From assembly GCF_003664325.1 (NCBI RefSeq), contig NZ_RCDA01000001.1:682001-746000 (forward strand): DNA of 64,000 nucleotides, in the 5' to 3' direction. Position 1 is the first letter of the stretch. The number at the start of each line of letters is the position of its first letter. The DNA is from Alkalispirillum mobile. GTDB taxonomy: Bacteria; Pseudomonadota; Gammaproteobacteria; Nitrococcales; Halorhodospiraceae. Shown one piece after another: positions 6,619-60,113 of this stretch. A model generated the notes under the pieces. The model saw only the letters and a program-made list of their open reading frames with translations. It ran no database searches and was not told the origin of the DNA. The translations under genes were made by a program, and so were the position numbers.

Positions 6619-6667
6619 GGGGTGGATTATCCGCGTCCGGGCACAACCTCGCCTTGATGCAGGTCAA
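6619..6667 (-). promoter_or_regulatory. FNR/ANR-type class II promoter of the cco operon
   Basis: On the plus strand 6654-6667 reads TTGATGCAGGTCAA, one change from the FNR consensus TTGAT-N4-ATCAA. On the minus strand a -10-like GATAAT lies at 6631-6626. The box centre (6660.5) is 32 bases from the -10 centre, which puts the box at -41.5 for a start near 6619, the classic geometry of FNR-activated promoters. It reads toward ccoN about 50 bases downstream. Confidence 0.8.
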
Positions 6668-6815: not shown

Positions 6816-7742
6816 ATGGACTTGCGAAAGGATATCGAGCGCTTCCTCGAAGCCGCCAACGAGATCGTTCTGGGCAAGGAGCACGAGGTCCGGCTGGCAC
6901 TGGTCTGCCTCATGGCCCGCGGCCACCTGCTGATAGAGGACCTGCCCGGGGTCGGCAAGACGACCCTGGCCCAGGCCCTGGCCCGGCTGCTGGGGCTAGA
7001 CTTTCAACGGATCCAGTTCACCAGCGATCTGCTGCCTGCCGACATCATCGGTGCCACTGTCTACGAGAAGGCCCAGGGGAGCTTCCGCTTTCACCCCGGC
7101 CCGATCTTCTCCTCCCTGGTTTTAGCCGATGAGGTCAATCGCGCCACCCCCAAGGCGCAGAGTGCGCTGCTGGAGGCCATGGCCGAGCGCCAGGTGAGCG
7201 TGGAAGGAGCAACGCGGGCGCTGCCCGAACCGTTCTTCGTCATCGCCACCCAGAACCCGGAATCACAGCTGGGCACCTTCCCACTGCCAGAGTCACAACT
7301 CGATCGCTTTCTCATGCGGTTGAGCCTGGGCTACCCCGACAGCAGCGCGGAGCGCGCCCTGCTGCGCGGTGAGGATCGGAGCGATCTGCTGCACCGGATC
7401 GACACCCCCGCCCTCCCGGTGGCGCAGCTGGAGGCACTGCAGCAGGCCGTGCCGCGTATCCACGCCTCCGACGCCCTGCTCGACTACCTTCAGGCCCTGC
7501 TGCGCCATACCCGGGAGTCCGGCGCCTTCCGCCACGGCCTCTCCCCGCGCGCGGGCCTGGCGCTGCTGCGCACCGCCCAGGCCTGGGCGCTCTCCCATGA
7601 CCGGGGGGCCGTGCTGCCGGAAGACATCCAGGCGGTGTTCGTGCCGGTAGCGGGCCACCGGCTGGAGCCGCGGGAAGACGGCACGGCCGGGGCCCACGAG
7701 GACCGGGTGCGCGAAGCGCTGGAACAGGTCGCCATCCCCTGA
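6816..7742 (+). CDS. MoxR family AAA+ ATPase
   Basis: A 308-residue AAA+ ATPase. Walker A GVGKTT lies at about residue 45, Walker B LADEVNRA at about 105, followed by a sensor-1 region (VIATQNPES) and an arginine-rich lid. MoxR proteins act as chaperones for VWA-domain or secreted partners. Here it starts a tight operon with a DUF58 protein and a transglutaminase-like protein, a very common trio. The ATG at 6816 is preferred over an upstream GTG because GGGAG precedes it and homologues begin at this MDLRKDI-like segment. The stop overlaps the next ATG by one base. Confidence 0.92.
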   Translation: MDLRKDIERFLEAANEIVLGKEHEVRLALVCLMARGHLLIEDLPGVGKTTLAQALARLLGLDFQRIQFTSDLLPADIIGATVYEKAQGSFRFHPGPIFSSLVLADEVNRATPKAQSALLEAMAERQVSVEGATRALPEPFFVIATQNPESQLGTFPLPESQLDRFLMRLSLGYPDSSAERALLRGEDRSDLLHRIDTPALPVAQLEALQQAVPRIHASDALLDYLQALLRHTRESGAFRHGLSPRAGLALLRTAQAWALSHDRGAVLPEDIQAVFVPVAGHRLEPREDGTAGAHEDRVREALEQVAIP

Positions 7743-33366: not shown

Positions 33367-33724
33367 GGGGGCGACTTGGATTCGACGCGGGTCGTGAAAC
33401 CCTAGGTGCATGCCGAGGATGCAGCTCAACCTCGTAAAACCTGCTGCCAACTTAAAATAGTTGCCAACGACGAAAACTACGCTCTGGCGGCGTAAACCCC
33501 GCCAGCCGCATTTGATCCAGTGCTTGTGCTGATCAAATTGCGGTCGTAGCTCACAAGCTAGCCACAGGGCGCTGTCCCGAGCCCTGTCGCGAAACTCAAG
33601 GGACTCGCTGTCGGCAACCTTGCCTACCGGGGTGTCGGCAGTTAAATCAAAGGGTGGGGCTAAGCATGTAGACCCGAAGGTAGATCATCCGCGGACGCGG
33701 GTTCGATTCCCGCCGCCTCCACCA
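33367..33724 (+). ncRNA. ssrA: Transfer-messenger RNA (tmRNA)
   Basis: A 358-nt RNA. The 5' end GGGGGCGACTTGGATTCGAC pairs with the 3' CGCCTCC before an encoded ACCA end, forming the alanine-type acceptor stem with one G-U pair; the T loop GGTTCGATTCCC is intact. The tag reading frame at 33463-33495 encodes ANDENYALAA followed by TAA, identical to the E. coli tag. It rescues stalled ribosomes with SmpB and marks the product for ClpXP. A terminator lies 35 bases after the mature end. Confidence 0.98.
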
Positions 33725-57723: not shown

Positions 57724-58338
57724 ATGCAGCTTTTCCTGAACGCGACCTCACCTTACGCCCGCGTGGCCCGCATCGCAGCCCTGGAGAAGGGCCTGGCGGA
57801 CCGGGTCGAACTGATCTGGTGCGACCCATGGAGTGACGATGAGGCGCTGCTTGCGGTGAACCCGGTGGGTCGGGTGCCGGCACTGACCACCGATGACGGC
57901 ACGGCGTTGGTCGAATCGCCGTTGATTGCCATGCACCTGGATGCCGTTGGCCAAGGCCCCGACCTGGTGCCGGGGGCGCAACAATCGGAGGTACTGCACC
58001 GGGCCGGTCTGGGCCAAGGCCTGATGGAGGCGGCGTTCAATTCCGTGATTGGGCGCAAACACCAGGGCGCGGCGGCCGATGACTCCGTTCTGGGTCAACG
58101 CCGGGCGCGGGCGATAGCACGGACATTGGCGGCACTGGACAATGAGGTAATTGAGGGCGGGGACAATCCGGACAACAGGGGCACCGTGACCCTGGGCGAT
58201 ATCGCCGTGGCCGTGGCCCTGGACTACCTGCTCTTCCGCATGCCGGAAATCGACTGGCAGCCCCGTCACCCGGCCCTCGCGGACTGGCATGAGGCCGTTA
58301 TTGCCCGGGAAAGCTTCCGTACCACTCGCTTTCAGTAA
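57724..58338 (+). CDS. Glutathione S-transferase family protein
   Basis: A 204-residue GST. The thioredoxin-like N-terminus begins MQLFLNATSPYARVARIAAL with the Ser at the active position, then NPVGRVPAL (cis-Pro) and VESPLIAMHLD; a helical C-terminal domain follows (about 90-200). It joins glutathione to electrophiles or acts as a reductase. It forms an operon with the MFS gene, suggesting detoxification and export, controlled by the LysR protein. Confidence 0.9.
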   Translation: MQLFLNATSPYARVARIAALEKGLADRVELIWCDPWSDDEALLAVNPVGRVPALTTDDGTALVESPLIAMHLDAVGQGPDLVPGAQQSEVLHRAGLGQGLMEAAFNSVIGRKHQGAAADDSVLGQRRARAIARTLAALDNEVIEGGDNPDNRGTVTLGDIAVAVALDYLLFRMPEIDWQPRHPALADWHEAVIARESFRTTRFQ

Positions 58339-58368: not shown

Positions 58369-58402
58369 AAAAAGCCCCACCCGGCTTTCACCAGGTGGGG
58401 CA
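58369..58402 (-). terminator. Intrinsic terminator of the small RNA
   Basis: On the minus strand CCCCACCTGG and CCGGGTGGGG form a 10-bp stem with one T-G pair and a 6-base loop (TGAAAG), followed by CTTTTTG. It would also protect the convergent GST operon end. Confidence 0.85.
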
Positions 58403-58531
58403 CATAGCCTTCCGGCTCTCCTGACCGCGCCCTCCGCTAGCACGGACGGGGCTTCCCTGCTGCGCTTCTTGGTGCATCCTGCTGAAGTTATTGGCCGTTG
58501 CCTCCGTGCAACGGTAGACATCCTTGTCTGA
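58370..58531 (-). ncRNA. Candidate CsrB/RsmY-like CsrA-sequestering small RNA
   Basis: An approximately 162-nt RNA gene in the 290-base gap before the SLC13 transporter gene, with no convincing reading frame. Transcribed leftward from a predicted start at 58531, it has seven GGA motifs: AAGGA, ACGGAG, CAGGATG, CAGGGA, GCGGAG, CAGGAG and CCGGAAGG. Three sit in loops of perfect hairpins: AGACA-AGGA-TGTCT (58528-58515), CCGTTGC-ACGGAG-GCAACGG (58514-58495) and AGCC-GGAA-GGCT near 58415. AGACAAGGATGTCT contains ACARGGAUGU of the CsrA SELEX consensus. It ends in a strong terminator. CsrB/RsmYZ RNAs bind and sequester CsrA. Function is inferred; no homologue has been compared. Confidence 0.68.
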
Positions 58532-58537
58532 GGACGT

Positions 58538-58579
58538 AAGCTACTCCCATCGCCGGCCCGTTGAATTGACTTAGGTCAA
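58538..58579 (-). promoter_or_regulatory. Crp/Fnr-type box and -10 upstream of the small RNA
   Basis: On the minus strand TTGACCTAAGTCAA (58579-58566) is a perfect inverted repeat TTGAC-N4-GTCAA. A weak -10 (TAGCTT, 58543-58538) lies 32 bases away centre to centre, which puts the box at -41.5 for a start at 58531, the same geometry as at ccoN. The regulator could be FNR/ANR or an NO-type Dnr/HcpR. Confidence 0.65.
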
Positions 58580-58631: not shown

Positions 58632-60113
58632 TCAGCCCCCACCCGAAAAGAGGGGGACAACCGCAATAGTACTCACCACCACCAGGACCGGTAACGCAAA
58701 CAGGGTCACCCACGCCCCGGCATAGACCATGTCCGTGACCCGCAACCGCTCGCTACCGAAGATAATGGCGTTCGGTGGCGTCGCCACCGGAAGCATGAAG
58801 GCGCAGGAGGCGGCCAGGGCCACCGGCACGGCCAGCAGGAGCGGGTCCACCTCCAGCATCAGGGCCAACGATACCATCAGGGGCAGCAACGTGGCGGCCG
58901 TCGCCGTGTTGCTGGTGACATGGCTCAGCAGCAGCGTCAGGGTCGCGATCACCGCGATCAGCGACCAGATCGGCCAGCCCGCCAGATCCACCAACGTCAG
59001 GGCGATCGCGTGGGACAGCCCGCTGTCCTCGATGGCCACCCCGAGGCTGAGCCCACCCCCGACCAGGATCAACACCCCCCAGGGCAACTCCCGGGTGGCC
59101 TGCCACTCCATCAGGAACTGTTGTCGCCGCCAGTCCACCGGCACCAGGAAGAGGGCGACCCCCGCCGCCAGGGCGATGCCGGCGTCGCTGAGTTCCCCCC
59201 ACGGCCAGACCGCCTGGAGCAGCGGCCGGCACACCCAGGCCAGTGCCGTAAGCGCGAAGATCATCGCCACCCGGCGCTCCCCCCGACTGATCCGCCCGAG
59301 TGCCTTGCGCTGGGATTCGATCAACTCGGAAACACCCTGCATGGACTGGCGGCGGACCTGGTAGACCTTGTGGGTCAACAACCACCAGGTACCGGCCAGT
59401 AGGGTCAGCGCCAACGGCACGCCGAGGATCATCCACTGGGCAAAACCGATCTCAAGCCCCTGGCGTTCGGAAAGGAACCCGGCCAACAAGGCGTTGGGCG
59501 GTGTTCCGATCAGGGTCCCCATACCGCCGATATTCGCAGCAAATGCGATACCGATCAGCAGCCCGAGGATGAAGTCACGCTCAATCTTGCCGCTCTGGTC
59601 CTCCAGCAGCGCGATGACCGAAAGCCCGATGGGCAGCATCATCGCAGCGGTGGCGGTATTGCTGACCCACATGCTCAGGCCTGCCGTGGCGGCCATAAAA
59701 CCGCCGATCAGCAGATCCGGCCGGCGCCCGGAAACGCTCAGGATGGTGATGGCAATGCGCCGGTGCAGGTTCCAGCGCTGAATCGCCAGCGCCAGCAGAA
59801 AGCCACCGAGAAAGAGGAATACCAGGGGATTGGCATAGGGGGCCGCCGCGCTCTCCACGCTGCTGACCCCGAGCATGGGCAGCATCACCATGGGGAGCAT
59901 GGCCGTGACCGGCAGGGGCAGGGCCTCACTCACCCACCAGGTAGCCATCAGCAGGGTCAATGCGGCTACCCGCCAGGCCTCGACCGACAGCTCACCGGGT
60001 GGCCCGATCCAAAGCATCACGGCGAAAATGGCCGGCCCGGACAGAAACCCGAACACCCGGCGCCAATGGTGGGCCGGGCGTTCGGGCTGCTGGCTGGCGG
60101 ACGGTGGGCTCAC
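58632..60113 (-). CDS. SLC13/DASS-family anion:Na+ symporter
   Basis: A 493-residue transporter with about 11-13 helices. The family marks are visible: FLFLGGFLLALAIQRWNLH near 95, MWVSNTATAAMMLPIG near 150 and SHVTSNTATAATLLPLM near 390, the two inverted SNT motifs. Members import dicarboxylates, citrate or sulfate with Na+; which one cannot be told. GTG start. The gene is 7 bases after the chemoreceptor gene, with which it may be co-transcribed. Confidence 0.9.
   Translation of the reverse strand: MSPPSASQQPERPAHHWRRVFGFLSGPAIFAVMLWIGPPGELSVEAWRVAALTLLMATWWVSEALPLPVTAMLPMVMLPMLGVSSVESAAAPYANPLVFLFLGGFLLALAIQRWNLHRRIAITILSVSGRRPDLLIGGFMAATAGLSMWVSNTATAAMMLPIGLSVIALLEDQSGKIERDFILGLLIGIAFAANIGGMGTLIGTPPNALLAGFLSERQGLEIGFAQWMILGVPLALTLLAGTWWLLTHKVYQVRRQSMQGVSELIESQRKALGRISRGERRVAMIFALTALAWVCRPLLQAVWPWGELSDAGIALAAGVALFLVPVDWRRQQFLMEWQATRELPWGVLILVGGGLSLGVAIEDSGLSHAIALTLVDLAGWPIWSLIAVIATLTLLLSHVTSNTATAATLLPLMVSLALMLEVDPLLLAVPVALAASCAFMLPVATPPNAIIFGSERLRVTDMVYAGAWVTLFALPVLVVVSTIAVVPLFSGGG

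Follow-up and report, generated by a model that had tools for sequence, protein, structure and literature searches.

We found that the gap between an SLC13-type symporter gene and a glutathione S-transferase (GST)-like gene of Alkalispirillum mobile contains what is, on balance, probably a gene for a CsrA-titrating RNA under the control of an FNR-type protein. A more specific reading has FNR (or DNR) directly controlling a dedicated CsrA sponge of high capacity, which works in parallel with one that GacA controls within the same cell and writes oxygen or NO status straight into the Csr network. We rate this more specific reading as possible, a little short of probable. The DNA that we analyzed, here called the window, is a stretch of 64,000 nt (NZ_RCDA01000001.1, positions 682,001-746,000); positions are numbered within the window.

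Results

Anatomy of the candidate RNA

The features of the locus are collected in Table 1. An earlier note on this DNA had described seven GGA motifs in about 162 nt, three of them in the loops of perfect hairpins, one site matching the CsrA SELEX core, and a strong terminator. All of this is borne out: the seven motifs are all on the minus strand, the match to the SELEX core is exact, and the three perfect hairpins with a GGA in the loop are SL1, SL2 and SL7. The centroid fold of the RNA starting at 58531 consists of exactly these three hairpins and the terminator. In SL1, which holds the SELEX core ACAAGGAUGU, the ACA and UGU are paired and AGGA forms the loop. The fold of the RNA is stable (z -2.8 and z -3.6 in two computations). 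The GGA motifs in the middle of the RNA are paired in many alternative folds.

Table 1. Positions of the candidate RNA, its parts, its neighbors, and the other loci discussed in the text
Feature	Position	Strand	Remarks
Candidate RNA element	intergenic, between the SLC13 and GST-like genes	minus throughout	
SLC13/DASS sodium-coupled anion symporter	58632..60113	(-)	upstream neighbor; box begins 52 nt after gene end
Glutathione S-transferase-like protein	57724..58338	(+)	downstream neighbor, convergent
Predicted noncoding RNA	58369..58531	(-)	~163 nt, seven GGA, candidate CsrA-binding sponge
Crp/Fnr-type box TTGACCTAAGTCAA	58566..58579	(-)	perfect TTGAC-N4-GTCAA palindrome, center 58572.5
-10-like hexamer TAGCTT (TAnnnT)	58538..58543	(-)	22 nt after box
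Predicted transcription start	58531	(-)	box center at -41.5
GGA motifs (starts)	58523, 58505, 58479, 58456, 58435, 58421, 58413	(-)	seven
SL1 AGACA-AGGA-UGUCU	58516..58529	(-)	5-bp perfect stem; GGA in loop
SELEX core ACAAGGATGT	58518..58527	(-)	exact match to CsrA SELEX core ACARGGATGT
SL2 CCGUUGC-ACGGAG-GCAACGG	58495..58514	(-)	7-bp perfect stem; loop GGA
GCAGGAUGC	58474..58482	(-)	weak 2-bp GGA hairpin, CAGGA context
SL5 CCGUGCU-AGCGGAG-GGCGCGG	58425..58445	(-)	7 pairs including two G-U; loop GGA; other folds compete
SL7 AGCC-GGAA-GGCU	58406..58417	(-)	4-bp perfect stem; GGA in tetraloop
Intrinsic terminator	58374..58401	(-)	12-bp stem, then TTTTT; directional for minus strand
FNR-type site TTGACCTGCATCAA (ccoN yardstick)	6654..6667	(-)	upstream of gene read as ccoN, other end of window
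tmRNA gene	33367..33724	(+)	Rfam RF00023
GacA/UvrY relative	L173:8995-9632 = G000:C1 ~213995-214632		diverged; uvrC synteny
dtd-linked RNA of A. mobile	L266:984-1178 = G000:C3 ~6883-7077	(-)	degenerate site ATTCAGAAAAATCCTACA
dtd-linked relatives	L222-L227, L229-L231, L234, L236, L246, L248, L254-L257, L259-L265, L267		order genomes

A promoter with an FNR-type box

The sequence upstream of the candidate RNA fits the class II pattern for FNR/ANR, that is, TTGAY-N4-RTCAA near -41.5 plus a -10 element. The earlier note had reported a perfect TTGAC-N4-GTCAA box at -41.5 with the same geometry as the FNR site of ccoN, and we found both statements to be correct. The order at ccoN is TTGACCTGCATCAA, 22 nt, GATAAT, and that at the candidate RNA is TTGACCTAAGTCAA, 22 nt, TAGCTT; the two boxes also have the left half TTGACCT in common. 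TAGCTT has 3/6 of the consensus -10 bases, and a promoter scan detected no sigma-70 site at the candidate promoter. The box is flanked by the 3' end of SLC13 and by the candidate RNA, and no other gene in this convergent gap is placed to use the promoter.

The genome encodes FNR, with the cysteines C-X2-C-X5-C, a fourth cysteine in SSICEIPF, and the recognition helix PETMSRL (E..SR type); its match to NF008365 scored 290 bits (cut-off 228). FNR is the member of the superfamily that most likely acts at TTGACCTAAGTCAA, an identity that we infer. The genome also encodes a second FNR-like protein, in which the Fe-S cysteines are kept but the recognition helix is altered. A DNR/NnrR-like regulator is encoded too, beside genes interpreted as those of a cytochrome and a NosR-like protein. 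These two regulators are at L135 and L136 (G000:C5 and C2). Because all three regulators are encoded, control by oxygen is not separable from control by NO. The proposal in the earlier note of a switch by oxygen or NO thus holds in part: Crp/Fnr-type control best fits the anatomy and FNR is encoded, but the two signals are not told apart.

CsrA-type sites are enriched in the candidate RNA

At least seven GGA motifs per 162 nt were found in approximately 2.8% of windows in the local G-rich DNA. For three or more GGA motifs in short hairpin loops, the figure was approximately 7%. Raw counts of GGA motifs and hairpins by themselves prove little. Since several of the single features are weak, the combination was tested on 464 kb of the same genome (the window plus 20 sampled stretches), and it is the combination that is unusual.

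The context of the GGA motifs sets the candidate RNA apart. Five of its seven motifs are preceded by CA or CA-N, here written CA(N)GGA, compared to 13.7% of noncoding GGA motifs (binomial P ~8e-4; the tests were devised after the locus was seen and the P values are therefore optimistic, although the properties tested are largely independent). Among the fully noncoding 163-nt windows in the 464 kb, the candidate RNA ranks first for CA(N)GGA, and no other reaches five. Of the noncoding stretches that came next in CA(N)GGA content, those that we inspected were genes or did not have the features. Of the two occurrences of ACARGGATGT in the 464 kb, only the one in SL1 is noncoding.

We also compiled the intergenic terminators in the 464 kb that are preceded by 150 or more noncoding nt; there were 14, including that of the candidate RNA. 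The candidate locus had the highest number of GGA motifs upstream of the terminator (eight; the others had at most five). It was also alone among the 14 in having an exact (10/10) TTGAY-N4-RTCAA box, the best of the others reaching no more than 8/10.

These comparisons bear on the alternative that the locus does encode a small RNA activated by FNR, but one that works through base pairing, with CsrA binding weak or absent and the GGA motifs a by-product of G-rich loops or of Shine-Dalgarno-like GGAGG. There is a precedent in FnrS of E. coli, which is driven by FNR and acts mainly by base pairing (PMC10729762). Moreover, the evidence for the promoter is at least as strong as that for CsrA, two of the loops contain GGAGG, and the raw density of GGA is common in this DNA. 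Points against it are the enrichment of CA(N)GGA, an exact SELEX core inside a perfect hairpin, and a number of sites similar to that of the dtd-linked Csr RNAs described below. We consider this alternative unlikely, though it deserves some weight.

Another possibility is that the sequence is only the 3' UTR and terminator of the SLC13 mRNA, without a promoter of its own and next to a chance palindrome. The terminator is on the same strand as SLC13, approximately 230 nt past its stop, and a scan found no intrinsic terminator in between. A shuffled window predicts ~0.05 perfect palindromes per 64 kb, or ~2 per genome, so the mere presence of one, the number found in the 2.95-Mb genome, is not unusual. 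In contrast, an exact Crp/Fnr box in the gap at a ccoN-like spacing to TAnnnT is improbable, since only ~0.0005 exact boxes are expected per 260 nt. The SLC13 relatives in the family have no comparable box downstream. (The one box close to an SLC13 relative, L023, is separated from it by a phasin-like gene.) A 3' UTR without its own promoter is, in our judgment, quite unlikely.

The candidate RNA appears to be restricted to its lineage

We found no homologue of the candidate RNA by blastn in 40 relatives. A covariance model made from the single sequence (R1) likewise detected none in 54 genomes of the order, in which A. mobile was the sole genome of its genus. Of the 14 off-locus matches to R1 (down to E 8e-4), 12 had no GGA array or matched the terminator only; the other two (L120 and L127) were weak and on short contigs. 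In a search for a paralogue elsewhere in the A. mobile genome, the only match was to the terminator. We also searched 12 genomes of the family with a composite pattern (box plus two GGA motifs). The matches that were fetched were upstream regions of genes or coding DNA and had no terminator-ended GGA array.

The candidate RNA had no match in Rfam at the gathering cut-off (CsrB, CsrC, RsmX, RsmY, PrrB_RsmZ and FnrS). The best Csr-like match was to rsmX (11.4 bits, E 8, gathering 56), and FnrS was also absent from the matches with E<=10.

The earlier note had said that a lack of conserved GGA hairpins in related species would speak against the RNA, and the covariance search, with one genome of the genus, indeed found none for this locus. 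With a single genome, this is absence of evidence at the level of the genus and evidence for lineage restriction at the level of the family. Without a homologue, no test of covariation is possible. Our best reading is that the candidate RNA is specific to its lineage, the family's other named genus being Halorhodospira.

A separate arrangement was seen in three Halorhodospira genomes (L194, L195 and L196). A conserved TTGAT-N4-ATCAA box, followed by a hairpin of the CCGTACGGT type, lies upstream of a gene for an ArsR-like regulator.

A. mobile also has a GacA relative and, it appears, a dtd-linked Csr RNA

The A. mobile genome encodes CsrA, with a score above the curated cut-off. It also encodes a relative of GacA/UvrY; the genes that come after it are a uracil-DNA-glycosylase-like gene and uvrC (uvrC synteny). 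The exact GacA-type site, TGTAAG-N6-CTTACA, of which the earlier note saw no copy, is absent from the whole genome. There is also no GacA-like site upstream of the candidate RNA, and the nine sites with two mismatches all lie elsewhere (0/9 at the locus). In the family, degenerate sites (up to two mismatches) are about as frequent as a reversed control and are thus uninformative.

Exact GacA-type sites are present in 3/54 genomes of the order. In all three, one site adjoins dtd and is placed to drive a GGA-rich, terminator-ended RNA away from dtd. In one genome (G034), a second exact site on the minus strand of L143, from 1501, is followed by 18 GGA motifs in 300 nt, a CsrB-like arrangement.

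Using dtd as an anchor, we found the RNA, divergent from dtd, in approximately 26 genomes of the order. Its site has a clade version, TGTMRGAAAATTCYTACA, of the type TGTMRG-N6-CYTACA. The RNA has 5-14 GGA motifs, often in CA(N)GGA context, and the loop of its terminator usually contains a GGA. None of 20 loci scanned had a match in Rfam. A. mobile has this RNA as well, with a site three bases off the clade consensus. It thus appears that A. mobile carries an ordinary GacA-type Csr RNA and that the candidate RNA in the window is additional.

Two observations were made on these RNAs in other genomes. First, a conserved block, GCGCAGATCACCTCCAGCCAAGTGA, just before the terminator resembles the 3' end of 16S rRNA, GGAUCACCUCC (L225, L226, L229, L255, L257, L265 and others); to judge from its sequence, the block may base-pair with Shine-Dalgarno sequences or else with GGA motifs of the same RNA. 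Second, a genus with small genomes (g10, ~1.2-2.2 Mb) has no close match to GacA/UvrY, and its dtd loci that were inspected have no GacA-type site; the two parts of the Gac-Csr RNA circuit appear to have been lost together.

These findings change one claim of the earlier note, that the RNA would be a CsrA sponge switched by oxygen or NO instead of GacA. A CsrA sponge under Crp/Fnr control still fits the anatomy best, and both CsrA and FNR are encoded. The replacement of GacA is unsupported: a GacA relative with uvrC synteny and a dtd-linked RNA of the GacA type are both present in the genome, and "instead of GacA" therefore becomes "besides GacA".

The candidate RNA resembles the dtd-linked RNAs in the number of GGA motifs per length, CA(N)GGA context, GGA loops and terminator, and both its GGA count and the accessibility of its motifs are within their range. 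It might be a second copy or local version of the dtd-linked RNA, with a changed site through which a diverged GacA controls it. The GacA relative is indeed diverged, scoring 247 bits against an NCBIfam cut-off of 280, and its recognition helix is SGKTVSTFRHRLY rather than the SPKTVSTYRYRLY of most others read (nine other members of the order; the Halorhodospira copies were left out). However, A. mobile still has the dtd-linked RNA itself, with a recognizable GacA-type site. In addition, the candidate RNA lies between the SLC13 and GST-like genes and has an FNR-type box where the dtd-linked RNA has a GacA-type site. Finally, the family model (R2) misses the candidate RNA even though it detects Halorhodospira members that had been held out. 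R2 also misses the dtd-linked RNA of A. mobile, and Csr RNAs evidently diverge fast. Taken with the absence of a GacA-like site upstream, these differences make a local copy very unlikely.

A small protein gene is strongly disfavored to the point of near dismissal: a 58-aa ORF from 58521 is open through the region, but its codon log-odds are -0.44 per codon (gene mean +0.41, 5% quantile 0.03), it has no Pfam match and no spaced Shine-Dalgarno sequence, and it runs through the terminator.

Discussion

Starting from the observed anatomy and statistics, and from the presence of CsrA, FNR, GacA and a second Csr RNA in the genome, we infer the following steps of transcription, FNR activation, CsrA binding and physiological outcome. 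The SLC13-GST gap would contain, on its minus strand, a small RNA gene that stands alone. The activator would be a protein of the FNR type, most likely the FNR with four cysteines, which is active when oxygen is low; it would bind TTGACCTAAGTCAA in the class II position and recruit RNA polymerase to TAGCTT. The transcript of ~163 nt would stop at the intrinsic terminator, and the loops of SL1, SL2 and SL7 and the other CA(N)GGA sites would bind CsrA dimers. CsrA would thus be titrated off mRNAs as oxygen falls, or as NO appears if the DNR-like protein acts. The RNA would work alongside the dtd-linked RNA of the GacA type and would not replace it.

Like CsrB/CsrC and RsmX/RsmY/RsmZ, the candidate RNA is intergenic and terminator-ended, with GGA hairpin loops, one site with the SELEX consensus, and CsrA encoded in the genome. 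It differs from them in having a Crp/Fnr-type box at -41.5 and no GacA/UvrY site, no Rfam match, and no relative found outside its genome. FnrS is similar in its FNR-type promoter and as a possible CsrA sponge. It has been reported as a potential weak sponge, with an effect of ~1.2-fold in plasmid assays compared to ~9-fold for CsrB, unconfirmed under native conditions, and it has at most four GGA-type sites (PMC10729762). In contrast, the candidate RNA has seven GGA motifs, one of them in a SELEX-type hairpin, and matches no Rfam model at the gathering cut-off.

There are also precedents for control of Csr RNAs by the Crp/Fnr superfamily. CRP controls CsrB/CsrC in Salmonella (PMC7591399) and Yersinia (PMC3523269). 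Those RNAs, tuned by CRP-cAMP, are also in the BarA/UvrY circuit, whereas the only recognizable control site of the candidate RNA is the FNR-type box. Low oxygen is tied to Csr RNAs in Pseudomonas aeruginosa, where it represses rsmY/rsmZ indirectly, with Anr acting through NarL (O'Callaghan 2011, as described in PMC3603453); the prediction here, by comparison with that description, is of direct activation by an FNR-type protein. In the literature searched, most subscription papers being outside it, we found no Csr-type RNA that combines multiple sites with direct control by an FNR-type promoter.

The known links that feed respiratory state into the Csr/Rsm system are indirect (Anr-NarL repression of rsmY/Z) or weak (FnrS). 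The conserved dtd-linked Csr RNA, which has escaped Rfam, is a ready yardstick across the order. If the candidate RNA functions as we propose, it would be a direct wire from oxygen sensing to a global post-transcriptional regulator, and it would be an example of a Csr RNA that arose outside the Gac circuit.
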